A DNA stretch of 64,000 nt from Falsiroseomonas tokyonensis (lineage in GTDB: Bacteria > Pseudomonadota > Alphaproteobacteria > Acetobacterales > Acetobacteraceae). This document shows, piece after piece, positions 10,847 through 22,610 of this stretch (its first letter is position 1; the number at the start of each line of letters is the position of its first letter). Both the position numbers and the translations under genes were made by a program. The notes under the pieces are model-generated. The model was given only the letters and a program-made list of their open reading frames with translations. It ran no database searches and was not told the origin of the DNA. The DNA lies in contig NZ_JAFNJS010000005.1 of assembly GCF_019024325.1 (NCBI RefSeq), forward strand, positions 1-64,000. The letters run 5' to 3'.

Positions 10847-11162
10847 CTATGCTTCCCCGGCCCGCGTCTTGTCGCAATACCGTGGGTGGAGAGCGCTGTT
10901 TTGCGGTCCCAGACTCGACCGGTAGCCGGTCGCGATGCGTAACCGGCCGGTGTGTCTCGGCGAAGATTTGCCCCGATTTCAGTGACTTGAAGCTTGTAGA
11001 CTAAATCGCCCAAGTCCCGAGCTTCGGAGAGAGAATTGCCTCAGGAGCGACGCAAACGCCGGTCGTTGCGTTCTCCAACCCTCAAGCCACCGCGGCAAAA
11101 CCCCAGGAAACCTGCGGTTCACGGCGCTAATCGGGAAGTGCAAATGTGAGGTTGGAAAACCG
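10847..11162. other. intergenic stretch with no gene seen
   Basis: No convincing coding frame, RNA gene or repeat was seen between the 5' remnant of the pseudogene and the left attachment site. It probably represents decayed sequence at the edge of the first island. Confidence 0.4.
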
Positions 11163-11211
11163 ACTGGAGCGGGCGAAGGGATTCGAACCCTCGACCCCAA
11201 CCTTGGCAAGG
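11163..11211 (-). repeat. attL: 49-bp copy of the tRNA-Gly 3' part
   Basis: This segment is identical over 49 bp to 22534-22582, which is the anticodon-to-CCA part of the tRNA-Gly gene. The match breaks at both sides (G/A before, G/T after). It lacks the 5' half of the tRNA and cannot be a functional tRNA gene. With the integrase beside the other copy, this is the left attachment site of the ~11.4-kb element. Confidence 0.93.
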
Positions 11212-11270
11212 GTGTAATACCCAAGCGTTTTCAGCGGCTTAAGTAGTCACAGGCTAGCAAAACTTGGCAC

Positions 11271-11289
11271 GCGAACCATAGGGGTTCGC
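11271..11289. repeat. inverted repeat near the left end of the element
   Basis: GCGAACC-ATAGG-GGTTCGC, perfect 7-bp arms and a 5-nt loop, lies 60 bp inside attL and directly before the first gene. It could be an integrase arm site or an operator for the primase operon. Confidence 0.4.
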
Positions 11290-11294
11290 AGACC

Positions 11295-11528
11295 ATGCGT
11301 GTTAGTTGCGTTCTACACCATCCCGATGGCGACCGCCAGAATCTGGCGTGCCATCCCGAACAGTTCACGCAGATCGGCGAGGCCGCACCGGTCGCGTCCC
11401 TCCGCGAGCTGCTGACCCTGGCCGGCGAGGCCCGGCGCCGCGGCGATGTGGCTGCGGCTGACCTGCTGGAATGGGATGCCCTGCGGCTGCTGCGGGCGAC
11501 CATGACGGAGGCCGGCGCCCATGGCTGA
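11295..11528 (+). CDS. small protein leading the primase operon
   Basis: 77 residues. It has two cysteine/histidine pairs near the N-terminus (C5, H8 and C19, H20) and a helical C-terminal half (LRELLTLAGEARRRGDVAAADLLEWDALRLLRATM). The gene overlaps the primase start by 8 nt, so it is expressed with it. I do not recognise a family. A replication accessory role is suggested only by position. Confidence 0.55.
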   Translation: MRVSCVLHHPDGDRQNLACHPEQFTQIGEAAPVASLRELLTLAGEARRRGDVAAADLLEWDALRLLRATMTEAGAHG

Positions 11529-13827
11529 CGGCACCATCGGCCCCATCGACTTCGGCAGCCGCGGCGACGACATCGACTTCAAGGCGCTGATGGAGCCGGT
11601 GGCGCTGCGGCTACTCGGCCCGATCAACAAGGCACTGACCCGCCCGGGCAACCTGCGGTTCGGCACCCACGGCAGCGTGTCAGTCTGCACGGCCGGGGAG
11701 AGCGCCGGCACCTGGTTCGACCACGAAGCCGGCCAAGGTGGTGGCGTGCTGGATCTGGTGCGGCGCGAGACCGGGCTGGCCGATGGTGCGGCGGCGGATT
11801 GGCTGCGGCAGGAGATCGACGGCGCTGCGACCCCTCCGCGCCCCGTGCGGCACCCCTTCGGCATCGGCGCTACTGCCGCTCCAGCAGCTGCGCCTGCGCC
11901 CGCCAGCGAGGCCCCCAAGGCGTACGGCCGCATAGTCGCAACCTATCCCTACCGCGCCGCGAACGGCGCCCTGCTGTTCCAGGTTGTGCGGTTCGACCCG
12001 AAGGACTTCCGGCAGCGCCGGCCGGATGGCGCGGGCGGCTGGATATGGAAGGTCAAGGGCATGGAGCTGGTGCCCTACCGGCTCCCGGAGCTGATGGCGG
12101 CACCAGCCGATGCGCCCGTGTTCATCGTGGAGGGCGAGAAGGACGTGGACACCCTCCGCGGCATCGGCCTGGTGGCGACCTGCAACCCGGTCGGCGCCGG
12201 GAAATGGAAAGCCTCCTACTCGACCTGGTTGAGCGGTCGCGCCGTGGTGATCCTGCCGGACAATGACGAAGCCGGCGCGGCGCACGCCGCCAGCGTCGCC
12301 GGCATGGTGGCGAAGGCTGCGGCATCGGTCCGCATCGTCCACCTGCCGGACCTGCCGCCGAAGGGCGACGTTTCGGATTGGCTGGCGGCAGGCGGGACGG
12401 CCCAGGCGCTGTTGCAGATGGTGGCCGAGGCGGAACCCTATGTGCCGCCAGCGCGCCCGGCGCGAGCCGAGCCGACGACGGCGGACCTGCAGGATTGCGA
12501 GCTGACCGAAGATGGCGTGGGCTTGGCCTTCACCAAGCGGCACGGCGACGCGCTCAGGTTCTGCCACGACACCGGCGGGTGGTATGTATGGACCGGCACC
12601 CACTGGAAGCAGAACCGCGACAAGATCGCGTTCTCATGGGCGCGGACCCTCACGCGAGAGCTGAACCGTAACGCCGACTTTAAGGGCAAGGCGATCACCG
12701 GCAAGGCCGCGTTCGCCGCAGCGGTGGAGCGGTACGCGCAGGCTGACAGGGCCTTCGCGGTGACGGCGGAAATCTGGGACCGCGACCTCCATTACCTCGG
12801 CACGCCGGGCGGCACGGTGGACCTGCGGACGGGCCAGATGCGCCCGGCCGATCGACAGGACCATATCACCAAGGTGACGGCGGCGGCGCCGACCGAGACG
12901 GCAGACTGTCCGACCTGGTTGGCGTTCCTGGACCAGGCGACGGCCGGTGACGCGGAGCTGGTCCGGTTCCTCCAGCAATGGGCAGGCTACAGCCTGAGCG
13001 GCAGCACGCGAGAACACGCCCTGCTGTTCATCTACGGGCCCGGCGGCAACGGCAAATCCGTGTTCCTGAACACGGTGGCCGGCATCATGGGTGATTACTG
13101 CCGCAGCGCGCCGATGGACACCTTCACGGCCTCGCCGGGCGACAAACATCCTACGGACCTCGCCATGCTGCGCGGCGCCCGTCTGGTGACGGCGACCGAG
13201 ACGGAAGAAGGCCGCGCATGGGCAGAGGCCCGCATCAAGCAGATGACCGGCGGCGATCCAGTTACGGCCCGCTTCATGCGGCAGGACTTCTTTACCTATA
13301 CGCCGCAATTCAAACTGACCATCGCCGGCAACCATAAGCCCGCGCTGAAGAACGTGGATGATGCGGCGCGGCGCCGGTTCAACATCGTGCCCTTCCTGCA
13401 CAAGCCGGAGCGACCGGACCACCAGCTTGAGCGGAAGTTGCGGGGCGAGTGGCCTGGCATCCTGCGATGGATGATTGAGGGTTGTCTCGACTGGCAGCGT
13501 CACGGGCTGGTGCGTCCGAAGATCGTCACCGATGCGACGGCGGAATACTTCGAGGCGCAGGACACCATCGGGCGCTGGCTGGCCGAGCGGTGCATCCTGG
13601 CTCCGCATCTGGAGGTGAAGCCCGGCCTGCTGCTGAAAGACATGCAGGAATGGGCGCAGGCGAACGGCGAGCCGTCCAGCGATAACCGCAAGCTGCGCGG
13701 CGTTCTGGAGAAGACACCCGGCTGCCAATACGTCACCCGCAAGGGCAGCCAATACGTGCGCGGTATCGGCCTGCATCCGCCGCAGCGGGGTGGAGGGGTG
13801 GAGGGTGGTGGAGGGTGGAACCCATGA
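11521..13827 (+). CDS. P4-type DNA primase-helicase
   Basis: 768 residues. After an N-terminal segment that resembles a CHC2-like/DUF3987-type region without obvious zinc cysteines, a Toprim domain shows IVEGEKD (E204, E206, D208) and PDNDEAG (~residue 246). A linker leads to the D5_N/P4 region and a superfamily-3 helicase with Walker A GPGGNGKS (from residue 506), an acidic VTATETEEG segment (~560) and the arginine-rich AARRRFNIVPF. Such proteins prime and unwind at their own origin in P4-like satellites and small phages. The C-terminal tail is Gly-rich because it is encoded by the left arm of a large inverted repeat. The stop overlaps the next ATG. Confidence 0.92.
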   Translation: MADGTIGPIDFGSRGDDIDFKALMEPVALRLLGPINKALTRPGNLRFGTHGSVSVCTAGESAGTWFDHEAGQGGGVLDLVRRETGLADGAAADWLRQEIDGAATPPRPVRHPFGIGATAAPAAAPAPASEAPKAYGRIVATYPYRAANGALLFQVVRFDPKDFRQRRPDGAGGWIWKVKGMELVPYRLPELMAAPADAPVFIVEGEKDVDTLRGIGLVATCNPVGAGKWKASYSTWLSGRAVVILPDNDEAGAAHAASVAGMVAKAAASVRIVHLPDLPPKGDVSDWLAAGGTAQALLQMVAEAEPYVPPARPARAEPTTADLQDCELTEDGVGLAFTKRHGDALRFCHDTGGWYVWTGTHWKQNRDKIAFSWARTLTRELNRNADFKGKAITGKAAFAAAVERYAQADRAFAVTAEIWDRDLHYLGTPGGTVDLRTGQMRPADRQDHITKVTAAAPTETADCPTWLAFLDQATAGDAELVRFLQQWAGYSLSGSTREHALLFIYGPGGNGKSVFLNTVAGIMGDYCRSAPMDTFTASPGDKHPTDLAMLRGARLVTATETEEGRAWAEARIKQMTGGDPVTARFMRQDFFTYTPQFKLTIAGNHKPALKNVDDAARRRFNIVPFLHKPERPDHQLERKLRGEWPGILRWMIEGCLDWQRHGLVRPKIVTDATAEYFEAQDTIGRWLAERCILAPHLEVKPGLLLKDMQEWAQANGEPSSDNRKLRGVLEKTPGCQYVTRKGSQYVRGIGLHPPQRGGGVEGGGGWNP

Positions 13828-13899
13828 TCGGCCACGTGCGCGCGCGTGTGGAGATGGAACGGGAAAACCCTCCACCACCCTCCACCCCCTCCACCCCGC
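13785..13899. repeat. large G-rich inverted repeat, candidate replication origin
   Basis: The left arm (13785-13816) is built from repeats of GGTGGAGGG. The right arm (13867-13899) is its reverse complement and differs by one extra G. A 50-nt loop separates them. The left arm codes for the primase C-terminus and the right arm lies in the next small gene. P4-type primases bind short iterated repeats at the origin, so an origin next to their gene is plausible. Alternatively it is a strong RNA hairpin or a G-quadruplex element. Confidence 0.55.
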
Positions 13900-13949
13900 A
13901 GACGATGGCGGAGCGGCTGGCTCAGGATGTGCGGAGGGCGGCGGCATGA
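13824..13949 (+). CDS. very small coupled gene spanning the inverted repeat
   Basis: 41 residues, from an ATG overlapping the primase stop (ATGA) to a TGA overlapping the next ATG (ATGA). The sequence has a basic-acidic start (MIGHVRARVEMERE), a Pro/Ser/Thr middle coded by the repeat arm, and a helical end (AERLAQDVRRAAA). Coupling on both sides is the main support; it may be translated only to carry ribosomes through the repeat. Confidence 0.4.
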   Translation: MIGHVRARVEMERENPPPPSTPSTPQTMAERLAQDVRRAAA

Positions 13950-14233
13950 TCCCTAAGCAATTCCGGTCACTGGTCCGCACCGAGCAGGACCTGCAGGCCA
14001 AGGAGGCGGCGGCACTGCGCGAGGTTGAGAGGGCGTGTGACGGCCTGCGCCGTCTCCCGCACCTGGCTCTGCACGCTGCCGAATATCACGGGAGGCAAGA
14101 GGCGCTGCAGCGCAGGCTCAACACTGCACTGCGCGACTTGGCCGAGACGATCACGCACCGGCTTGAGGTCAGGGCGGAGATAGAGACCGAGCCGCTGCAC
14201 TCCGTCGCCACCCAGCCCGGGACACGGCACTGA
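13946..14233 (+). CDS. small helical protein after the primase
   Basis: 95 residues, almost wholly helical and highly charged (VRTEQDLQAKEAAALREVERACDGL...ALQRRLNTALRDLAETITHRLEVRAEIE), consistent with a coiled coil. The start ATG overlaps the preceding stop (ATGA). No family recognised. As the last gene of the primase operon it may assist replication or its control. A 150-bp non-coding gap follows. Confidence 0.5.
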   Translation: MIPKQFRSLVRTEQDLQAKEAAALREVERACDGLRRLPHLALHAAEYHGRQEALQRRLNTALRDLAETITHRLEVRAEIETEPLHSVATQPGTRH

Positions 14234-14383
14234 CCGACATAGGCAAAGACTGTGGGAAGGGCCGAAAAGGTAGGTTCTTCCTGGGTTTGGCGGCCCGCAG
14301 AGGTTCGGGCGGCATCGCAAATCCAGGCGCAGAGGGTTTTCAAGGTAGCATCATCGTTTCCACCGATCGAAAGGGCTTAGACA

Positions 14384-14806
14384 ATGGCTTCACTCAATGA
14401 TGAGATCCCCGCCGGGGCGACTGCCGGCCAGATGGCGCGAATCCTCGGCATCACTGAGCGCGTCGTCGCGGGCAGAAAGGCGGATGGCCGCCTGCCGGTG
14501 CTGCCGGGCGGCCGGGTGGATCTTCACCGCCTGGTCCGGCTTGGCGCGGCGGCTGCGGCAGAACAGCGCGCAGGCTCGGCACCGGCTGGTGCGAAGCCGC
14601 CGCCCGCCGAGGCTTTCGACGCCGGTATGCGTGCCGCCGCTGCAACCACCGCGCATCTGGTGCTGGCGGCGATCACCAGCCCGGAGCATGGCGAGGATGC
14701 CGGCACGGCGGCGGCGCGGGCGCTGGCGACGGCGCTGGACATGCTGGGTGTGCCGCCTGGCGAGGGCCCTCCGCCGGCCCGGCTGGCGGTGCCGGACATT
14801 AATTAA
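14384..14806 (+). CDS. helix-turn-helix protein resembling small terminase/Nu1
   Basis: 140 residues. The N-terminal 55 residues (ATAGQMARILGITERVVAGRKADGRLPVLPGGRVDLHRLVRL) have the winged-helix layout of lambda Nu1-like small terminase subunits: a short HTH, a 'G-x-L-P' wing and a start of a helix. The rest is Ala-rich and helical (TTAHLVLAAITSPEHGEDAGTAAARALATALDML), which would suit oligomerisation. No large terminase is present in the element. If Nu1-like, it could redirect a helper's packaging machinery to the satellite; a plain regulator remains possible. Confidence 0.45.
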   Translation: MASLNDEIPAGATAGQMARILGITERVVAGRKADGRLPVLPGGRVDLHRLVRLGAAAAAEQRAGSAPAGAKPPPAEAFDAGMRAAAATTAHLVLAAITSPEHGEDAGTAAARALATALDMLGVPPGEGPPPARLAVPDIN

Positions 14807-14888
14807 CCCCGCGAAAATCCCTGTCGCTAGGTCAATTACGCGGGCTGAATCGCTGCGGCAGTGCCAACGCCGGAGGAACCTAGTTCTG

Positions 14889-15287
14889 TCATTTGCCTCG
14901 GCGGCTGGCCCGCCGTGGAGCTGCCTCATAGACGGGCGGTGTCCAAGCGGGCCTTGTGCGGGCCGCTGCGATGTCGGCATTAACCTCGCGTTCAAACAAC
15001 CGAACCGCTGCCCATTGGCCAGCTGCCTTCACGGCATCGAGCAACACCTCGCCGGTCACCGGAGTGGAAGAAAACTCTCGCACCGCGCGGTCCCCGGCAG
15101 CGCCGTCACCTGCATGCTTGCCAATGAGTGCCAAGCCGGCTTCACGGTAGGCGGCCGCCATCAATACCGCCAGTTCTGGTGATCCGTCTCCCGGCTGGCT
15201 CTGCTGCATCTGGGTGGCTTCGCCAGATAGCCGCGCCTTGATCCGCTCCCGGTGCCGCCGCTGCCTATCCGCGTTGCTGAGTGCCAT
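14889..15287 (-). CDS. small phage-type protein with basic N-terminus
   Basis: 132 residues. The N-terminus MALSNADRQRRHRERIKARLSG is strongly basic and recurs, to my recollection, in small alphaproteobacterial phage and plasmid proteins. The middle and end are helical (ELAVLMAAAYREAGLALIG, LDAVKAAGQWAAVRLFEREVNADI). Two perfect 12-bp palindromes lie 16-53 bp upstream of the start, so the gene is regulated; the protein may itself bind them through its basic region. It is transcribed opposite to the structural genes, together with or parallel to the repressor. Confidence 0.5.
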   Translation of the reverse strand: MALSNADRQRRHRERIKARLSGEATQMQQSQPGDGSPELAVLMAAAYREAGLALIGKHAGDGAAGDRAVREFSSTPVTGEVLLDAVKAAGQWAAVRLFEREVNADIAAARTRPAWTPPVYEAAPRRASRRGK

Positions 15288-15302
15288 CTTCCTGTCTCCC
15301 GC

Positions 15303-15340
15303 CGTTACGTAACGAATATGGGGCGGCCCGTTACGTAACG
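15303..15340. promoter_or_regulatory. two 12-bp palindromes, candidate operators
   Basis: CGTTACGTAACG occurs at 15303-15314 and again at 15329-15340, 26 bp apart, in the 68-bp gap between the repressor stop and the start of the minus-strand gene at 15287. Both copies are perfect palindromes. They differ from the GGCACA-N3-TGTGCC operators at 15584-15642, so a second regulator is implied. Confidence 0.65.
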
Positions 15341-15355
15341 CAAGCGGCAGGTGGT

Positions 15356-15616
15356 CTAGCCCTTCCTCAACCGCACGCCGGGCCCGCCGCCGTTTTCCGC
15401 GATGAAATCGACGCCGGCCGCTTCAAGCGCGGTCCGGATCGCGGCCAGGGTGCGGCGCTGCGGCTGGCCCTGGTCAGCCTCAAGCCTGGCGATTGTGCGG
15501 CGCGGGACGCTGCTGCGGCCGGCTAGATCATCCTGCGACCATCCGAGCAATGCCCGGCCCGCGCGGACCTGTGAGGCAGTAATGGCGCAATCTGTGCCAT
15601 TTGGGCTTGCGTTCAT
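15356..15616 (-). CDS. XRE-family (Cro/CI-type) repressor
   Basis: 86 residues: a single helix-turn-helix domain, ITASQVRAGRALLGWSQDDLAGRSSVPRRTIARLEADQGQPQRRTLAAIRTALEAAGVDF, then a short tail. There is no C-terminal peptidase or oligomerisation domain, so it is not LexA/CI-like in SOS cleavage. The start at 15616 was preferred because operator palindromes overlap and precede it; the frame stays open far upstream but antisense to another gene. It probably represses its own promoter and the divergent genes from 15725, setting the quiescent state of the element. Confidence 0.85.
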   Translation of the reverse strand: MNASPNGTDCAITASQVRAGRALLGWSQDDLAGRSSVPRRTIARLEADQGQPQRRTLAAIRTALEAAGVDFIAENGGGPGVRLRKG

Positions 15617-15642
15617 TTGGGGATGGTGGCACAGATTGTGCC
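15584..15642. promoter_or_regulatory. paired repressor operators between divergent genes
   Basis: GGCACA-GAT-TGTGCC at 15628-15642 is a perfect palindrome 11 bp upstream of the repressor start. A second, one-mismatch copy GGCGCA-ATC-TGTGCC lies at 15584-15598 inside the first repressor codons. Their centres are 44 bp apart, about four helical turns, which would allow cooperative binding on one DNA face. Confidence 0.7.
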
Positions 15643-15724
15643 GTTCCGCAAGGAACCGGCCGGACGCGGAAGGTGGATCTTCCCCGCCCGGCCTAACCGC
15701 AACCCGATGCAGGAGCACCGGTTC

Positions 15725-16219
15725 ATGGCTGACCAATCCAATACCACCCCCGGCACCCCGAGAAGAAGACTCGCCCGCGCCGCTGCCGTCTCTCTGGCCG
15801 TGGCGGCGCTTCCGACCGGCGCCACCCCGGCGCAGCCGCCCGCGACCCTGCTGCGCGTGCTGGCAAACCCGGCCCGGCCGGTGGAGCCTTTGAGCTTCGA
15901 CGGCGGCGCCGATGCCGAGCTGGTGCGGCGCCTCGGCGCCTATGTGGAGGCGGCCCGCACCTACAACACCGCGCCTCCCGACGCCTTCGATGGTGACGAT
16001 GATCCGCTCTGGCAGGCCCTGGTGGCGGCCCGCACCGATGCCGAGGCCATTGCGCCGCAGACGCTGGCCGGCATCGTGGCGAAGGCCGTCACGTCGGTGG
16101 CACTGGCGATGCAGGAGCCGGATGGTGACAGCGGATGGGGTGACGGCCCGGCCGGCGAGATTGCCCATGCGCTCGTCCTGGACGTGCTGCGTCTCTATGG
16201 CCCGGCGAGCGAGGCATGA
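15725..16219 (+). CDS. hypothetical protein divergent from the repressor
   Basis: 164 residues. AGGAG lies 9 nt before the chosen ATG. The N-terminus (RRRLARAAAVSLAVAALPTGATPA) looks like a twin-arginine or Sec signal, which would be unusual in a satellite; it may equally be a helix. The rest is acidic and helical (ELVRRLGAYVEAARTYN, TLAGIVAKAVTSVALAMQE). No family recognised. As the first gene under the operators it is a candidate early gene for induction or helper interference. The stop overlaps the following ATG. Confidence 0.5.
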   Translation: MADQSNTTPGTPRRRLARAAAVSLAVAALPTGATPAQPPATLLRVLANPARPVEPLSFDGGADAELVRRLGAYVEAARTYNTAPPDAFDGDDDPLWQALVAARTDAEAIAPQTLAGIVAKAVTSVALAMQEPDGDSGWGDGPAGEIAHALVLDVLRLYGPASEA

Positions 16220-16461
16220 GCGCCGTGGTGATCCCATTCCCCAAGGTGCTGCGCCGGTTGGAGGTCACATGGCCCGCCCAGCCAGCGCACCCCGCGCTTG
16301 AGGCGCTGGCGGGCCTCCCTCCCGACATGCGCCTGGTTGCCGCCTTCGCCTACCTGGCAGGCGTCAGCCGCCGCCCCTTCGCCTGTCCGCCGCTGCCGTG
16401 GGGCGGCGGGCCCAAGCCGCCCAAGCCGCCGCGCAAGCCGAAGCCGAGGCCGGCGACATGA
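16216..16461 (+). CDS. small protein with proline-lysine-rich tail
   Basis: 81 residues. A helical core (LEALAGLPPDMRLVAAFAYLAGV) is followed by a tail of repeated KPP/KPK units (GGGPKPPKPPRKPKPRP). It is coupled to the preceding gene by ATGA. Nothing identifies its function; basic Pro-rich tails often bind nucleic acid or partner domains. Confidence 0.45.
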   Translation: MSAVVIPFPKVLRRLEVTWPAQPAHPALEALAGLPPDMRLVAAFAYLAGVSRRPFACPPLPWGGGPKPPKPPRKPKPRPAT

Positions 16462-16543
16462 TCGAGGATGAAGCCATTATCGCGGCCCCCGCCGCGCCAG
16501 CTGCAACCTGCAGGTAGAGGTTCGATCCGTCGCGCATAACCAA

Positions 16544-16574
16544 CCCGGCCGGGGAAACCCGCGCCGGGCTTTGC
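16544..16574 (+). terminator. weak hairpin with short T run
   Basis: CCCGGC at 16544-16549 pairs with GCCGGG at 16563-16568, followed by CTTT. It could end the 15725-16461 transcript just before the next promoter. The T run is short. Confidence 0.3.
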
Positions 16575-16594
16575 GCTGGTTGCAAATGAAGGTG

Positions 16595-16623
16595 TTGACT
16601 ACGCGGTAAAAAGGAGATATATC
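16595..16623 (+). promoter_or_regulatory. sigma-70-type promoter of the capsid operon
   Basis: TTGACT at 16595-16600, a 17-bp spacer and TATATC at 16618-16623 give a near-consensus promoter. A GAGGAG ribosome site and the ATG at 16650 follow within 30 bp. An imperfect GGAGA/TCTCC inverted repeat overlaps the -10 region and could be an operator. Confidence 0.6.
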
Positions 16624-16649
16624 CCTTCTCCAGATGAGGAGTGCCCTCT

Positions 16650-17291
16650 ATGTCGCCCAGCTTCGACCTGACCAGCTATCTCTCGCGCCAGAAGTTCGAC
16701 ACCGCCGAGACGGCGGACGCCGCTGGCGTGTCCGTCGCGCGGCTGGCGGACTGGATCAAGCGCGGTGTCTTCGCGCCTCTGACCGAAGCCAAGCCTGGCA
16801 CCGGCCGCGGCCGGCAGTTCCTGCTCGCGGACATCTATCGTCTTTCCGTGATCGGTGCCTTGACCGACCCGGACGGTGTTTTCTCCATGCCGGCCTCCCG
16901 CGCAGTGGCCCTGACCGACGATGCGTTCGGCCTCGACCCCGAAAGCTGGTGCGGCAACCTCGACATGTTCGCCGAGTGCCGCGCTGCGCTGTTGTCCGGG
17001 TTCCTTCCGACCGAGCTGATCAGCCGCGACCGCAAGACCCCTATCTGGTTAATCGGCAGCGTGATCGACGTGATCGTGCCCAAGCCGCGCCGCCGGCTGC
17101 GGGGCGAGTTGGGAGTCTTCACGGAAAACGGGCTGCCGAATCCTCTTGGCCGAGCAAGGTCCTTTGTGACGGTTGAAGTCACGCCCCTGTTCGCGGCAGC
17201 AGATCGTCGCCTGTTCCACGCGAAGGGCCTGGCCGAGTTCTTCCCGGATCTGGCGAAGGCAATGAGCGTCGATGAGGACGCCGAGGCATGA
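16650..17291 (+). CDS. helix-turn-helix (MerR/AlpA-like) protein leading the capsid operon
   Basis: 213 residues. The N-terminal part (FDTAETADAAGVSVARLADWIKRGVF) has the MerR/AlpA-type helix-turn-helix pattern, and TGRGRQFLLADIYRLSVIGAL continues that domain. The remaining ~140 residues have no motif I know. The start ATG has GAGGAG 9 nt upstream; a GTG at 16641 is possible but overlaps that site. It sits directly behind a strong promoter and overlaps the protease-capsid gene (ATGA). It could activate the morphogenesis genes or act in packaging. Confidence 0.6.
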   Translation: MSPSFDLTSYLSRQKFDTAETADAAGVSVARLADWIKRGVFAPLTEAKPGTGRGRQFLLADIYRLSVIGALTDPDGVFSMPASRAVALTDDAFGLDPESWCGNLDMFAECRAALLSGFLPTELISRDRKTPIWLIGSVIDVIVPKPRRRLRGELGVFTENGLPNPLGRARSFVTVEVTPLFAAADRRLFHAKGLAEFFPDLAKAMSVDEDAEA

Positions 17292-19129
17292 TGCCGGCGG
17301 CACACCGAATTGACGGCCCGATCACGGCTGCCACGCCGGCCGAATTGGCTGCCTTCCTGAAAAGGGCAGGCCGCGCCGCTGTGCAGATCACCGTCAACAG
17401 CCCGGGCGGCAATGCGATGGCCGGAACCGCCTGTTACCAGCAGCTGCGAAGCTACCGCGGCGCGGTCACCGTCGTGGTTGAAGGCGTCGCCGCCTCTGCC
17501 GCATCACTGATCGCCATGGCGGGCCGGCCGATCCAGATGCACGCCGGTTCCTTCCTGATGATCCACGAGGCGCACAGCGTCTCCGAAGGGCCAGCACGAG
17601 AGATGCGAGAGCATGCTGCCATACTTGAGAGGGTCAGCGCCGTCTATCTCAAGGCCTACGCGGAGCGTTCTGGAAAGCCTGAGCGCGAAATCGCCGACAT
17701 GATGGCGAACGAAACCTGGATGACGGCGGAGGAAGCGGTGCAGGCGGGCTTCGCCGACGCGATCCTCGAACCGCTGCGCGCAGCGGCCTCCATCAACCTC
17801 AACGCCTTCGAATATCGCAACACCCCGGCGGCGCTCTGCGCGGCGGGCGGACAGGAGATCGTCATGGATACGCAGATGCAGAACGAACAGCTTATCGAGG
17901 CCGCGACGCGGCAGGAGATCACCGCCGTCGCGCGGCAGGCCGGGTTGGGCCTCGCCTGGATTGACGAGCAGGCCGGGCAGGCGGTCAGCATCGGCGATGC
18001 CCGCGCCGCGGCGCTGGACGCCATCGCGGCGCGCTCCGCTGCCGCAGTCCGCCCCTCCAGCGTTGTCATCGTCCGCGACGAAGGCGACACGCTCCAGGCG
18101 GCGACCACGGATTACGTCGCCTCCCGCATCCTGGGCCGAGCCCCAAACGGCCCGGCCGCCTCCCTGCGCGGGCATACCCTCGCGGACGTGGCGGCGATGG
18201 TGCTGGAAGGCCGCGGGCAGCGTATCGGCCGGGGAGTTTCGGCGGAACAGATCTTCGCCAAGCTCACCACGTCCGACCTGCCGAACCTCCTGACAAGCGG
18301 CGCGTCGCGGGCCATGGCCGAGCTTTACCCCACCGTCCGGACGCAGCTGGTCGAGTTGGCGCAGGTCCGCAACATGCCGGACTTCCGGCCGACGACGCTG
18401 ATCCGGCTGGCACAACACACGCCGCTGGACGAGGTTGCGGAACACGGGGAAGTCCCGTTCGCCTATCCAATGGAGAACGGGGAGCAGATCAAGCTTGCCA
18501 CCTACGCCAACCGCTTCGCGGTCACCCGCCAGGCCCTGGTAAATGACGATTTGAATGGCCTTCAGGAGTGGATGGCAGCGAATGCGCAGGGCGCAGCAGC
18601 CCGTGAGCGGTTGCTGGTGTCGGGCCTGCTGACCGCCGGCAGCGGCGTTGGTCCGACACTGAGCGACGGTAACCCCTGGTTCCACAGCAGCCGCGGCAAC
18701 ATCGCGACGGCCGCGGCGCCGAGCGTTACCAGCTTGGCGCAGGCCGTGTCTCTGATGCGGTCCCTGAAGGACGGAAAGGGCAACACGGTGTTCGCCCTGG
18801 AACCCTACGCCATCGTGGTTTCCCCGGCGCTGGAGTTCGTGGCGCGGCAGTTGGTCGCGTCGATCTCGACCACGACCACCCGGGACGAAATCCAGCCCTA
18901 CAGCCTCTCAGTGATCGTGGAGCCGGCGCTCACCGGGAACAGGTGGTGGCTGGCACCGCGCCCCGCGACGCGGCGCTGCATCACCATGGGCTACCTCGGC
19001 GGGATGCAGTCGCCGACGGTCGAAACCTTCGAGGCGCAGGAAATCCTGGGCGTCACGCTCCGCGTCCACTTCGATGTGGCGGCGGCGGTGCAGGACCCGA
19101 TCGGCTGGGTCACCAACGCCGGCGCCTGA
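17288..19129 (+). CDS. ClpP-type prohead protease fused to major capsid protein
   Basis: 613 residues. Residues ~1-165 form a ClpP-like serine protease: NSPGGNAMAG, nucleophile in EGVAASAAS (S70), FLMIHEA (H93) and TWMTAEEAVQAGFADAI. After a junction near residues 170-195 the rest reads as a Mu-like HK97-fold major capsid protein, with a helical delta-like segment (MQNEQLIEAATRQEI) and a shell domain (DLPNLLTSGASRAMAELYP...YANRFAVTRQALVNDDL...VSPALEFVARQLVASI). Fusions of this kind are known in prophages; the protease would cut itself off during head maturation. No portal or scaffold gene lies nearby. Confidence 0.88.
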   Translation: MMPAAHRIDGPITAATPAELAAFLKRAGRAAVQITVNSPGGNAMAGTACYQQLRSYRGAVTVVVEGVAASAASLIAMAGRPIQMHAGSFLMIHEAHSVSEGPAREMREHAAILERVSAVYLKAYAERSGKPEREIADMMANETWMTAEEAVQAGFADAILEPLRAAASINLNAFEYRNTPAALCAAGGQEIVMDTQMQNEQLIEAATRQEITAVARQAGLGLAWIDEQAGQAVSIGDARAAALDAIAARSAAAVRPSSVVIVRDEGDTLQAATTDYVASRILGRAPNGPAASLRGHTLADVAAMVLEGRGQRIGRGVSAEQIFAKLTTSDLPNLLTSGASRAMAELYPTVRTQLVELAQVRNMPDFRPTTLIRLAQHTPLDEVAEHGEVPFAYPMENGEQIKLATYANRFAVTRQALVNDDLNGLQEWMAANAQGAAARERLLVSGLLTAGSGVGPTLSDGNPWFHSSRGNIATAAAPSVTSLAQAVSLMRSLKDGKGNTVFALEPYAIVVSPALEFVARQLVASISTTTTRDEIQPYSLSVIVEPALTGNRWWLAPRPATRRCITMGYLGGMQSPTVETFEAQEILGVTLRVHFDVAAAVQDPIGWVTNAGA

Positions 19130-19255
19130 TGCAGTCCGCTGTGAGGGCAGCGATAGCCGGGCGTTCCATACCGGCACCCTCGGGACAAGACGGCGAGTGT
19201 CCCCAAAAACCCCGTCAGTCTGCGGCCCAACCTTCGGCGGGCGCGGCAGGCAACA

Positions 19256-19297
19256 GAAGGCGGCCCGACTCACGGATGCACTGAGCGGGCCGCCTTC
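19256..19297 (+). terminator. long GC hairpin between capsid and tape measure genes
   Basis: GAAGGCGGCCCG (19256-19267) pairs perfectly with CGGGCCGCCTTC (19286-19297), with an extra CTCA/TGAG stem inside. No clear T run follows. It lies 29 bp before the tape measure start and may reduce read-through after the abundant capsid message. The preceding ~120 bp are non-coding. Confidence 0.5.
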
Positions 19298-19326
19298 CCT
19301 AACCAAACAGGAAAGACACGCGCGCG

Positions 19327-20934
19327 ATGAGCGGTTCCGCCAACAACCTTCCGGTCCGGATCACGGTCGACGGCGTGCCGCAGGCCGAGGCGGCGTTTAA
19401 CAGCGTGGCGGCGACCGGCGAGCGCGCGATGCAGCGTATTTCGCAGGGCGCGAACCAGTCTCAGGCGTCCACGCGCGGCTTCAACGATGTCGTGCAACAG
19501 GGCGGCTTTCAGCTTCAGGACTTCGCCGTCCAGGTCCAGGGCGGCACCTCAGCACTGACGGCGCTTTCGCAACAAGGGTCGCAGTTCCTCGGCATCTTCG
19601 GCCCGGCCGGTGCCGTGGCTGGTGCGGTTCTTACCGTTGGCCTCCTGGCGGCGAAGTTCTTGGAGCTGGGAACCGCGACCGAGACGGCGACCGAGGCGGA
19701 AAAGAAGCTGCAGGACGCGATCACGGCAAGCAGCGAAATCTATGAGGATGCGACGGCCAAGGCGGATCGCCTGGCGCGGGCGCGTCTCTCTGCGGCGCAA
19801 GCCGGCATCGAGGAACGCATAACCGCCGAGCGTGATAGCCTGCGCGCTCTAAACTCTGCTGCGGCAGACATGGAAGATCGGCGGGCGTTTGCCACCGGCC
19901 GCGTAGGCGGTGGCGGCACGAACGACAATCCCGTAGTCCGAGCTGAGCGGGAGAGGATCGCTCAACAGGCGGAGCAGATAAGCGCACGCATTGCTGCGCT
20001 GGAATTGGAGCGCACGCGGCTTGCTGCAATCGGCAGCGGCAACGGCGAGCAATTCGGACCGCCAGCACCGTCTGGCCGCGACTCTGGCGCCTCTCGCGCC
20101 ACCGCCCGCGTGCCGGCTGCCGGGCTTGATGTCCGGGCCGCGGTGGCTCGCACCGTGGACGAAGCCACCGCGGCTTACGACCGATACAACCAAGTCCTGA
20201 ACCTCAACCAAGCCGGACTTTCCGGCGCCGCCTCCGCTCTATCGGCATACGAGGCGAGCATGACGACGCTGAACAACGCCCTGGCGGCTGGCGTCATCAC
20301 TGAGCAGCAATTCGCGGCCGATGTGGAGTCGAGCACCACGGCGCTCGCGGTGCAGATGGAGGCGATCGAACAGCGGACGCAACAAGCGGACCGAAGCGCG
20401 GTGCAGTTCGGTCTTGTCTTTAGCAGCGCGCTTGAAGGCGCGATCACCCGCGGCGAAGACGCCAGCCAAGTGTTGCAGGCACTCGGCGAAGACCTGGCGA
20501 AGCTGATCCTGCGCTTCACGATCATGGAGCCGTTGGCCCGATCTGTGGCAGGGCTTTTCAGCGGTGGCGGAGGCGGCGGCGGCGGCGGAGGTATCCTCTC
20601 GACCATTGCGAGCGTGGCCACGACTTGGATTACCGGCGGGGTTGCGGGCACGAGAGCGAACGGCGGCCCGGTCATGGGCGGATCCAGCTACCTAGTGGGT
20701 GAGCGCGGTCCCGAAATCGTCAATTTCGCGGCGAGCGGGGTGGTGACGCCGAACCACGCGATTGGTGGACCCACGTTCGCGCCAACGTATCAGATTGACG
20801 CACGGGGCGCAGATGCATCCGTGGCGCCGATGCTTGAAGCGAAGATGCGGGCCATCGCGGCGCAGTCTCTCGCACAGTTCACGGACAGCATCCGCCGCGG
20901 CGGACCTGGCGCAAAGCTGGTGGGGGCACGATGA
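19327..20934 (+). CDS. phage tail tape measure protein, short
   Basis: 535 residues. The N-terminal part (FNSVAATGERAMQRISQGA) and a hydrophobic GIFGPAGAVAGAVLTVGLLAAKFL segment (~residues 88-112) are followed by long coiled-coil helices. A Gly tract (~residues 415-425) and the C-terminal signature GGPVMGGSSYLVGERGPEIVNFAASGVV are typical of lambda-family tape measures. At roughly 1.5 angstrom per residue it would specify a tail of only about 80 nm. No tail tube, chaperone or tip genes accompany it, which is odd. Its stop overlaps the next ATG. Confidence 0.8.
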   Translation: MSGSANNLPVRITVDGVPQAEAAFNSVAATGERAMQRISQGANQSQASTRGFNDVVQQGGFQLQDFAVQVQGGTSALTALSQQGSQFLGIFGPAGAVAGAVLTVGLLAAKFLELGTATETATEAEKKLQDAITASSEIYEDATAKADRLARARLSAAQAGIEERITAERDSLRALNSAAADMEDRRAFATGRVGGGGTNDNPVVRAERERIAQQAEQISARIAALELERTRLAAIGSGNGEQFGPPAPSGRDSGASRATARVPAAGLDVRAAVARTVDEATAAYDRYNQVLNLNQAGLSGAASALSAYEASMTTLNNALAAGVITEQQFAADVESSTTALAVQMEAIEQRTQQADRSAVQFGLVFSSALEGAITRGEDASQVLQALGEDLAKLILRFTIMEPLARSVAGLFSGGGGGGGGGGILSTIASVATTWITGGVAGTRANGGPVMGGSSYLVGERGPEIVNFAASGVVTPNHAIGGPTFAPTYQIDARGADASVAPMLEAKMRAIAAQSLAQFTDSIRRGGPGAKLVGAR

Positions 20935-21188
20935 CCAAGAGGCCGGACCAGCATCTGCACGACGCGGAGGCGGCGCTGGAGGCGCTGCAGCATCGCGTGC
21001 TTGAGGCCCTGACCATCGGCATAACCGAACGCATGGACGCCCGCGCGGCCGGCGATGCTGCGCAGGATGCGAAATTGACGAAAGGCATAGACGCGGTGCT
21101 GGCGACGCTGGTCGCCAGTATTGAGCAGCGGGTGGTGCTGCGCCGCAGGATGCCGGCCCGTCACGCTGCATCAAAGGCCCGCAATTGA
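20931..21188 (+). CDS. small helical protein after the tape measure
   Basis: 85 residues, helical and charged (HLHDAEAALEALQHRVLEALTIGITERMDARAAGD...GIDAVLATLVASIEQRVVLRRRM). It is coupled by ATGA to the tape measure gene and its TGA overlaps the TTG start of the excisionase-like gene. No family recognised. Confidence 0.5.
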   Translation: MTKRPDQHLHDAEAALEALQHRVLEALTIGITERMDARAAGDAAQDAKLTKGIDAVLATLVASIEQRVVLRRRMPARHAASKARN

Positions 21189-21679
21189 AGATCGCCGTTC
21201 CCTTGCCTGAATTGCTGACCGAGGCTGAAGCCGCAAAACGGCTTGGCGTCTCGGCGGCAACCATGCAGCGGGAGCGGAAGCGCCGTCGTATCCGCCATGT
21301 CATCATCGGCGGCAGGCCGCGCTACACGGCCGATCACCTGGCCGAATATCTGACCGCACAGGAGGTTGCGCCGTGCCGCGAAGCCGACACCAGCACCCCG
21401 GCCAGATCGCCGGCTATTGGCTTAGCCAGCGGCCGAACAGCGGGCAGTGGTGCCGGACCTGGTACGATACTGACACTCGACAGACTCGCAGAGCATCGCT
21501 CGGCGTTGACGATTTTGCAGCCGCAGAAATCGCGCTTGCCGAGTGGATCACCAAGAACGTCGCCACCATCCGCGCCGAGCCCCGCGACATCACGCTCGCC
21601 CGCGTGTTCGTCCGATATCAGGAGCGGCACGGCCAGCACCTGGTCGGCGCCGGATCGCAGCGGATCAGCCTTGCCATGA
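21185..21679 (+). CDS. excisionase-like DNA-binding protein
   Basis: 164 residues from a TTG start that overlaps the preceding stop (TTGA). Residues 8-60 (LPELLTEAEAAKRLGVSAATMQRERKRRRIRHVIIGGRPRYTADHLAEYLTAQE) are a clear HTH_17/excisionase winged helix. The frame then stays open for 307 nt inside the integrase gene and codes a low-complexity Ser/Pro/Arg tail, so only the first ~65 residues look functional. Xis next to Int at the attachment site fits control of excision. Confidence 0.75.
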   Translation: MKIAVPLPELLTEAEAAKRLGVSAATMQRERKRRRIRHVIIGGRPRYTADHLAEYLTAQEVAPCREADTSTPARSPAIGLASGRTAGSGAGPGTILTLDRLAEHRSALTILQPQKSRLPSGSPRTSPPSAPSPATSRSPACSSDIRSGTASTWSAPDRSGSALP

Positions 21680-22599
21680 TGCTGCGCCATCTGCCGGAAG
21701 GGATCACCGTCGGCGAATTGACCCTCGACGCGCAGAACGTCGCGGTGCGGGCCATGCAGGCGGCCGGCTACGGCAACGGAACGATCAAGCGGGCGCTAGG
21801 CGCGGCGAAGGCGGCCGTGAATTGGGCCTGGAACAACGGCGAGCTGGAGCGGCCGGTGCCGTTCCTGAAGGTGCCGGAAGGGCAGGGCCGCGAGCGGGTG
21901 CTTTCGGTGGAGGAGCTGGCCCGGCTCTGGTCCGAGGACATGCCGGACCACGTGCGCGTGTTCCTCGCGCTGCTGATCGGGACGGCGGCGCGGCCGGAGG
22001 CGGCGCTACAGCTTACCCGGTTCCAGTGCGACCTGGAGCGCGGGACAATCAACCTGAACCCGCCCGGCCGGGTGCAGACGAAGAAGCGCCGGCCGGTTCT
22101 GCCGATGGCCCACTGGCTCCGATCCTGGATCGAGGCGGCGGAGGGGCACCTGGTCGCCTACAGGGGCAAGCCGGTGCAGAAGATCGCCGGCGCCTTCCAG
22201 ACCCTCCGGGATGCGGCCGGCTTCGGGCCGGACGTGACGGCCTACACAGTGCGGCATACCGTCGCCACCGAGATGATGGCGCGGGGCGTGCCGGAGCTGG
22301 AGATTGCCTTCATCATGGGGCACCGGATGCCCAACAGCCGGACGACAGGGAGATACCTGCATGTAGCGCCCGAACGCCTAGCCAGCGCCCGCAAGGCCCT
22401 GGATGACCTCGCAAACGACATCGGCCGCCTTGCCGGGCGGCCGATGGTACCAGTCCATTCCGATATCCAGCGTGCTAGTTGCGTGCCAGTGACGAAGCTA
22501 CAGGGTTGCCGCCCGATAGCTAAGCCTTTGAAAACTGGAGCGGGCGAAGGGATTCGAACCCTCGACCCCAACCTTGGCAAGGTTGTGCTCTACCCCTGA
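21373..22599 (+). CDS. tyrosine recombinase, integrase of the element
   Basis: 408 residues from a GTG. Residues ~60-170 are an SAM-like core-binding domain. The catalytic domain shows arginine I in GTAARPEAAL, the box YTVRHTVATEMM (the usual first histidine of HxxR is Y) and the tyrosine in GHRMPNSRTTGRYLHV. The 3' end runs through the 49-bp att core and into the tRNA-Gly gene, giving a tail GEGIRTLDPNLGKVVLYP. On the excised circle the tail would read NLGKGVIPKRFQRLK. It integrates the element at tRNA-Gly. Confidence 0.93.
   Translation: MPRSRHQHPGQIAGYWLSQRPNSGQWCRTWYDTDTRQTRRASLGVDDFAAAEIALAEWITKNVATIRAEPRDITLARVFVRYQERHGQHLVGAGSQRISLAMMLRHLPEGITVGELTLDAQNVAVRAMQAAGYGNGTIKRALGAAKAAVNWAWNNGELERPVPFLKVPEGQGRERVLSVEELARLWSEDMPDHVRVFLALLIGTAARPEAALQLTRFQCDLERGTINLNPPGRVQTKKRRPVLPMAHWLRSWIEAAEGHLVAYRGKPVQKIAGAFQTLRDAAGFGPDVTAYTVRHTVATEMMARGVPELEIAFIMGHRMPNSRTTGRYLHVAPERLASARKALDDLANDIGRLAGRPMVPVHSDIQRASCVPVTKLQGCRPIAKPLKTGAGEGIRTLDPNLGKVVLYP
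22534..22582 (-). repeat. attR: 49-bp core within tRNA-Gly
   Basis: Identical to 11163-11211. It covers the tRNA from the anticodon arm to the encoded CCA and also codes integrase residues 388-403. The full tRNA is restored on this side. Confidence 0.93.
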
Positions 22600-22610
22600 G
22601 CTACGCCCGC
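22536..22610 (-). tRNA. tRNA-Gly (anticodon GCC) with encoded CCA
   Basis: The minus strand folds as a cloverleaf: a 7-bp acceptor stem (GCGGGCG with CGCCCGC), D-arm GCTC/GAGC, a 5-bp anticodon stem (CAACC with GGTTG) around TTGCCAA with anticodon GCC, and a T-arm with TTCGAAT. Discriminator T and CCA are encoded. It is the integration site of the element at 11163-22582. Confidence 0.95.

Follow-up and report, generated by a model that had tools for sequence, protein, structure and literature searches.

The window analyzed here, a 64,000-nucleotide stretch of contig NZ_JAFNJS010000005.1 from Falsiroseomonas tokyonensis, carries an integrated element seated in a tRNA-Gly gene. The element measures 11,371 bp from the start of attL to the start of attR, and the two attachment (att) repeats that bound it (11163-11211 and 22534-22582) are identical across exactly 49 bp, with no third copy in the window. 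It combines integration and replication genes with a ClpP-type head protease fused to a major capsid protein and a tail tape measure protein (TMP), and no large terminase or portal gene was found in it. We read it as an integrated, helper-dependent satellite that probably supplies its own shell and tail ruler and borrows terminase, portal, and tail, a reading to which we give a probability of about 0.68. Its features are as follows.

11163-11211, no strand: attL, a 49-bp perfect repeat of the tRNA-Gly 3' end
11295-11528, plus strand: 77-aa open reading frame (ORF) with no family; the in-house gene caller picked an antisense ORF here
11521-13827, plus strand: P4/D5-type primase-helicase, 768 aa (Pfam D5_N, 1.2e-31; phrog_6088, 4e-148)
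13788-13895, no strand: candidate replication origin with GGTGGAG iterons in inverted arms, function putative
13946-14233, plus strand: 95-aa ORF, no assigned function
14384-14806, plus strand: Nu1-like helix-turn-helix (HTH) protein, 140 aa, possibly a small terminase subunit (TerS), a weak call (phrog_57, 4e-5)
14889-15287, minus strand: 132-aa ORF (phrog_10506, 0.03)
15362-15616, minus strand: XRE-family repressor (Pfam HTH_3, 9e-8)
15725-16219, plus strand: 164-aa protein with a twin-arginine (Tat)-like N terminus, label and start codon by eye
16216-16461, plus strand: 81-aa ORF, ATGA-coupled
16650-17291, plus strand: MerR-like HTH protein, encoded immediately before the head gene (Pfam MerR_1, 2.7e-5)
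17288-19129, plus strand: fusion of ClpP-type head protease and major capsid protein, 613 aa (Pfam CLP_protease, 8e-28, and Phage_capsid_4, 2e-34; phrog_133, 5e-109)
19327-20934, plus strand: TMP, 535 aa (phrog_1538, 6e-25; phrog_10574, 2e-14)
20931-21188, plus strand: 85-aa ORF, no assigned function
21185-21679, plus strand: excisionase-like HTH ORF, 164 aa, 3' end uncertain (Pfam HTH_17, 2.5e-9, residues 10-59)
21373-22599, plus strand: tyrosine integrase, 408 aa (Pfam Phage_integrase, 7e-12)
22534-22582, no strand: attR, inside the intact tRNA-Gly
22536-22610, minus strand: tRNA-Gly(gcc), intact, holding the right att copy

Gene starts are those of a simple in-house caller, and by-eye judgment supplied many of the gene-list labels; a 41-aa ORF (13824-13946) that overlaps the iterons was kept out of the parts list. 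The PHROG scan covered 10 of the 15 window genes, with the 41-aa and 95-aa ORFs, the repressor, xis, and int assessed by Pfam alone. An earlier note, made from the DNA letters, had described perfect 49-bp repeats at tRNA-Gly, Int and Xis, a P4-type primase-helicase, an XRE repressor, a ClpP-capsid fusion, and a tape measure, with no large terminase or portal. The repeats were recovered as described, and Pfam and PHROG profiles support the integrase, primase-helicase, and repressor; both domains of the fusion lie in one 613-aa ORF, and two PHROG families identify the TMP, whose Pfam TMP match (0.007) falls under the gathering score. Xis holds as far as its HTH_17 domain, but the ORF runs 307 nt into the integrase gene, which leaves the true 3' end uncertain. 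To this inventory we add the Nu1-like protein, the MerR-like gene, and the inverted iterons after the primase. The MerR-like gene overlaps the capsid start, and the small genes that relatives carry at that position are poorly conserved.

Predicted genes fill 90.8% of the element and leave no gap longer than 197 nt, so that a terminase or portal gene could hide only antisense to good genes; this lack of coding space is the decisive point, and it agrees with the earlier claim. A six-frame profile search of the element for TerL (the large terminase subunit), portal, gpW, gpD, a phrog_290-type tail protein, and gp10 matched nothing, and across Pfam, PHROG, and six-frame profiles the element showed no gene for a large terminase, portal, connector, decoration protein, or tail shaft. 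The six-frame profiles were built from lambda-type relatives, several of the scored elements included, and those positives are therefore so by construction; L113, L115, and L116 are independent of the construction of the TerL profile. The profile first named tail tube is the phrog_290 "minor tail protein." The same profiles were silent on locus L161, where PHROGs find a portal, so these negatives leave room for other portal families. No lysis genes appeared in the Pfam and PHROG lists for the window, from which lists alone this was judged, and Sid-, Psu-, or Delta-type names were absent from the same lists, no dedicated search having been made for them. No tail chaperone was recognized in the window, where small ORFs with no assigned function are present. 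For the small terminase, the phrog_57 match spans residues 11-87 (the HTH part only) at 4e-5, versus 2e-28 in the head-complete region L088; the Nu1-like protein is 38% identical to a homologue in genome G124.

A similar reduced layout was found in five further elements (three genomic, two on IMG/VR contigs), each combining a single protease-capsid gene with an integrase and a replication module; neither terminase nor portal was found in them. The element of G005 (contig C13, L038/L039) lies between 18-bp repeats in a tRNA-Phe gene and encodes int, a small HTH gene, a ClpP-capsid (70% identity), a small ORF, a MerR-like gene (by eye), and a D5 primase. That of G236 (C1, L040), between 19-bp repeats in a tRNA-Ala gene, encodes Toprim and RepA-type replication genes, a small gene at the MerR position, a ClpP-capsid (36%), xis, and int. 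The G124 element (C7, L097) has the same tRNA-Ala 19-bp repeat as G236; it carries a primase (76% identical over 445 aa), a Nu1-like gene (phrog_57, 0.003), a 509-aa TMP (phrog_8125, 2e-34), xis, int, and a protease-capsid whose protease is of a different type. On IMG/VR contig L224 we found a primase, a good Nu1-type TerS (phrog_57, 5e-20) that is not followed by any visible terminase gene, a ClpP-capsid 58% identical to that of G236, and an integrase 64% identical to the window's and cut by the contig end. L225 encodes a primase, a 663-aa TMP (phrog_1533, 4e-47), a ClpP-capsid, and an integrase. The negatives in G005, G236, and G124 come from gene lists and six-frame profiles, with seven of their proteins PHROG-scanned. 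A TMP is thus present in three of the six elements, and the best PHROG families differ (phrog_1538 in the window, phrog_8125 in G124, and phrog_1533 in L225). A seventh candidate, L095 (G143:C9, 10,690 bp), carries a ParA-like gene, a primase-like gene, a protease-capsid, and an HTH-like gene; no integrase was recognized in its gene list and the contig ends do not overlap, and it is possibly a plasmid-like capsid-bearing element.

Eleven other regions (L087, L088, L090-L094, L112-L114, and L116) have TerL, portal, and protease-capsid and no tail gene in the gene list. All 11 have a tRNA in the stretch, and an integrase was recognized in eight (L087, L088, L090-L094, and L114; L093 by DNA match); L113 and L116 look partly broken, and PHROG confirmation of the set covers L088 only. 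L088 (G205), which is head-complete, tail-less, and resembles the capsid-forming phage-inducible chromosomal islands (cf-PICIs), sits in tRNA-Gly with the same att sequence as the window element; its integrase is 70% and its primase 62% (over 437 aa) identical, and the DNA at the left end matches at 79% over 154 bp. The integrative backbone is therefore common to head-complete and capsid-only elements, and the same integrase and att backbone with either a complete head or a lone capsid makes the evolution of capsid acquisition directly comparable. A further region, L115, adds an 857-aa TMP and a small head-tail-like gene. Two related satellites in G388 (L161, 4800-16000; L162, 3000-14000) carry HK97-type portal, protease, and capsid genes, PHROG-confirmed for L161 only; a terminase was not recognized in their gene lists in a search that was not exhaustive, and they may represent another incomplete head set.

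The AlphaFold2 model of the 613-aa fusion (mean predicted local distance difference test score, 71.9) matches ClpP structures (E ~4e-10) and also the engineered nanocage 7mh2 (311 columns; template modeling score 0.32 by query length), which we take to be an encapsulin with the HK97 fold. Residues S70 and H93, presumably the serine and histidine positions of the ClpP motif, are invariant in three ClpP-type capsids, and H93 is invariant also in a 17-row alignment. The capsid of G005 is the nearest relative found, at 70% identity, and comparison of the two over 610 codons gave a nonsynonymous rate (dN) of 0.24 and a synonymous rate (dS) of 0.96 (dN/dS ~0.25; a simple Nei-Gojobori count, the genome being GC-rich), which shows purifying selection on the capsid. 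The capsid-domain tree has 32 rows, with the HK97-type capsids (L158-L162, L167, and L170) outside it, long open branches, and unsure placement of G236, G124, and G143. Labels on this tree (capsid-only, head-complete, or prophage) cluster, requiring 3 changes against a shuffled mean of 13.9, a value as low in 0 of 200 shuffles. The window and G005 capsids form a supported pair on a long stem, and the deep branching is weakly supported. The resident prophages were rejected as the source of the capsid on ~30% identity and tree placement.

Family scans sampled 299, 395, 385, and 347 genomes, with the best few candidates per genome scored. Thirty-five capsid-flank regions were fetched and eight left out: L104, L117, L120, and L126 (C6-type, 73-95% to the resident prophage C6), L102 and L105 (whose capsid ORF is split in two), L125 (truncated at the contig end), and L124 (which extends G408). 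A single-protein scan of genome contigs returned two distant matches only, and no close relative turned up in the phage collection, where all 1,368 matching records were below 60% identity. ClpP-capsid fusions at ~30-36% identity occur both in reduced elements (G236) and in full prophages (L089/G408, 30%; L096/G379, 35%). From the IMG/VR capsid scan the best 80 of 521 matches were kept, 71 of which had at least 2.4 kb upstream of the match; a portal or TerL profile lay nearby in 62 of these 71 loci, and among the nine without one only L224 and L225 had a capsid-profile match. The ClpP-capsid fusion as such is therefore ordinary.

The genome also holds candidate helper prophages, a search for which the earlier note had suggested, and none is singled out. 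Prophage C6 encodes TerL (phrog_15, 7e-252), portal (phrog_21, 6e-78), a protease-capsid (phrog_4523, 4e-156), a minor tail protein, and a J-type tail fiber protein (phrog_31, 2e-68); the closely similar C7 has a 718-aa TMP (phrog_3336, 6e-55), and C58 a portal (3e-84), a capsid (phrog_29, 2e-26), and a 1,042-aa TMP (phrog_167, 9e-7; phrog_1538, 1e-6). A review (PMC11389934) notes a strain with a cf-PICI and 17 prophages, none of which mobilized it. The window TMP is 42% identical to the C58 TMP over residues 37-442 and 43% identical to C6-type TMPs over its last 200 residues, and with matches to two prophage TMP types it looks mosaic. Recent DNA transfer from a resident prophage was rejected, the only match being 444 bp at 71% within the TMP, and the IMG/VR scan with the window TMP gave one marginal match. 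Elsewhere in the same genome, a region at G000:C23 ~473400-491700 (L198/L199) has primase genes, an integrase, an XRE repressor 59% identical to the window's over 73 aa, and a tail-side set of a 540-aa TMP (phrog_8125, 1.5e-30), a small tail protein, and a baseplate hub (phrog_177, 1e-107). Neither a portal nor a head shell gene was recognized in its gene list. Small Tat-like twin-arginine proteins (by eye) recur in the satellites of G236 (L040, 10762-11142) and G124 (L097, 6868-7305) and in resident prophage C58 (G000:C58, 148629-149066); a longer, 200-aa form of the window ORF (15617-16216) matched no family in Pfam and PHROG scans.

The iterons after the primase form 22-nt perfect inverted arms (13795-13816 and 13867-13888) of GGTGGAG units around a loop of ~50 nt. 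The best inverted repeat near the primase stop exceeded all 30 dinucleotide shuffles in 18 of the 22 primase loci tested, the exceptions being L114, L165, L166, and L169. Arm sequence varies among elements while complementarity is kept, as expected for primase-specific iterons. We regard these repeats as a candidate class of replication origin, although an RNA hairpin could also account for the arms.

At the integration site, two genomes of the same genus, G857 (L218) and G195 (L223), carry one att 49-mer with the rest of the tRNA directly after it, and the window's left flank adjoins this single att in both (350 bp at 89% and ~171 bp at 82%, respectively). Judged by their sequence, these are unoccupied att sites in the genus. 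Among the 15 genus genomes searched, that of the element itself included, the right flank was matched in 11 and the left flank in eight; G859 matched the left flank over 1.74 kb at 97%, without att or tRNA, and the right-flank-bearing genomes that were fetched (G447, G231, and G195) had no tRNA at that place. Positions 10992-11170 of the window, made up of the left-flank end and the initial 8 bp of att, recur in L217, L219, and L222 and are followed there by other sequence, as if this were the terminus of another repeated element.

From this anatomy and the biology of the phage-inducible chromosomal island-like elements (PLEs), we infer how particles may be built and what may be borrowed. Upon induction of, or infection by, a helper siphophage, the element would excise and replicate itself, and its protease-capsid would build a shell around the helper portal. 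The helper terminase would load satellite DNA into this shell, perhaps steered by the Nu1-like protein, and helper tail parts would polymerize on the satellite TMP to give chimeric tails, as shown for PLEs. In this scheme the size-setting proteins of head and tail would both belong to the satellite, and the rest would be borrowed.

Several observations weigh against a satellite of this kind. The packaging steps are all deduced from genes. Only half of the six capsid-only members carry a TMP, and those of G124 and L225 share several lower-ranked PHROG families and so are not wholly unrelated. The TerS call is weak in the window, and none was identified in G005 or G236. With ~30% identity to the capsids of the resident prophages, the window capsid stands alone on a long branch, which bears on its fit to a helper portal, and full prophages carry ClpP-capsids at 30-35% identity. 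Within the G005 element (L038, 16960-18267), opposite-strand fragments resemble, by eye, a glycosyltransferase and an S78 head protease, a sign of mosaic insertion or some decay. At the site itself, the window's right flank past the tRNA aligns with neither G857 nor G195, so that the same locus is not established for those sites; the last 171 bp of the left flank recur at three places with no tRNA after them (L217/G859, L219/G436, and L222 on C23 of the same genome); and a strict before/after empty site was not found among the genus genomes compared, which slightly lowers the satellite reading and slightly raises that of a reduced prophage.

The capsid and TMP might instead be interference decoys that poison the assembly of rival phages, the element itself then traveling in helper particles or by some other route. 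A shell without portal or terminase cannot work alone, and satellites are known to block helper assembly: Tai stops tail assembly (PMC11364771) and Rta targets the ICP1 TMP (PMC12987554). Yet the fused head protease kept here, with TerS-like genes alongside, fits assembly better than poisoning, and PMC12987554 describes the PLE TMP as built into satellite virions; we consider decoys unlikely.

The element could also be what is left of a once complete phage, decaying after the loss of most structural genes. Such an origin would suit the resemblance of its TMP to resident prophage TMPs and the occurrence of ClpP-capsid fusions in full prophages (G408 and G379) and beside portal or TerL in most of the IMG/VR loci, but the layout resembles that of five other elements, of which four have known ends or share an integrase type; the main ORFs are unbroken; and the capsid is conserved by selection and not close to the resident prophage capsids. 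The integrase, primase, and att backbone is moreover common to tail-less satellites. The earlier note had favored a satellite over a reduced prophage, and had named as refutation the finding of these genes only in full prophages, with random deletions and frameshifts in this copy; its preference is upheld, and that refutation did not come true when checked: the main ORFs of this copy are intact, and the nearest capsid relative found, in G005, lies in a short tRNA-integrated element in which terminase and portal were not found. We judge a decaying prophage to be quite improbable. Least likely of all is an eroded cf-PICI-like element packaged wholly in helper capsids, its own capsid no longer used, which would explain the integrase, att, and primase common with the head-complete element, but not a capsid under purifying selection that does not nest among head-complete capsids (deep branching being weak) and that several lineages keep as their only head gene.

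With the helper-dependent satellite as the preferred reading, we tentatively suggest, at rather less than even odds, a "two-ruler" class of satellites that encode only a shell and a tape measure and would dock them onto helper terminase, portal, and tail. Satellites have so far been sorted into capsid stealers and whole-head makers. If the class is real, head modules with only a capsid would be an intermediate between capsid-stealing PICIs and head-complete cf-PICIs, satellite shells could be fitted to portals of foreign origin, and control of tail assembly by satellites would reach beyond PLEs.

Compared with known systems, the window element differs from a complete prophage in that terminase, portal, tail, and lysis genes were not found in it. 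P4 carries a D5/P4-type primase-helicase and a tyrosine integrase in a tRNA gene, both of which the window element has, and is not known to make a major capsid protein. It uses the scaffold Sid to change the size of its helper's capsid (PMC10690885), whereas the window element has its own capsid gene. Mulch and Flayer, satellites of Streptomyces phages, likewise encode encapsidation genes, but with the opposite division of labor: terminase, portal, scaffold, and adapter are present and key replication genes are lacking (PMC10690885). The cf-PICIs, which that same source credits with capsid, protease, portal, connectors, TerL, and TerS, resemble the window element in being integrated and tail-less and in encoding a capsid and a head protease; here, we found no portal, connector, or TerL, and TerS is weak. 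The connector search used gpW and gp10 profiles, both negative, and small ORFs with no assigned function are present. On its gene content, the element falls outside the published cf-PICI definition. In searches of open-licence PMC papers, a set to which most subscription papers do not belong, no title or abstract start described a satellite with a capsid gene but no portal or terminase, and within this limited literature the capsid-only head module looks new. The earlier note had not recognized the gene set as a whole; its unfamiliarity seems to hold for this head module but not for the fusion, nor for the lone tape measure, which has precedent (PMC12987554). The legend of Extended Data Fig. 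10 in that paper (Nature 2026) refers to putative tmp genes mapped in a sampling of cf-PICIs. The PLEs, Vibrio cholerae satellites of ICP1, also encode a TMP without a whole tail, and the L198/L199 region, with its TMP and hub, recalls their gene set. The PLE TMP was shown experimentally to replace the phage TMP in chimeric tails, which are ~10 nm shorter for a 95-aa difference in TMP length (PMC12987554); by the same scale, the 535-aa window TMP would be expected to give tails some 20-30 nm shorter than those of a 718-aa helper TMP. PLEs also encode a tail chaperone. PLE11 virions contain ICP1-encoded capsid proteins (PMC12987554), whereas the window element encodes a capsid of its own.

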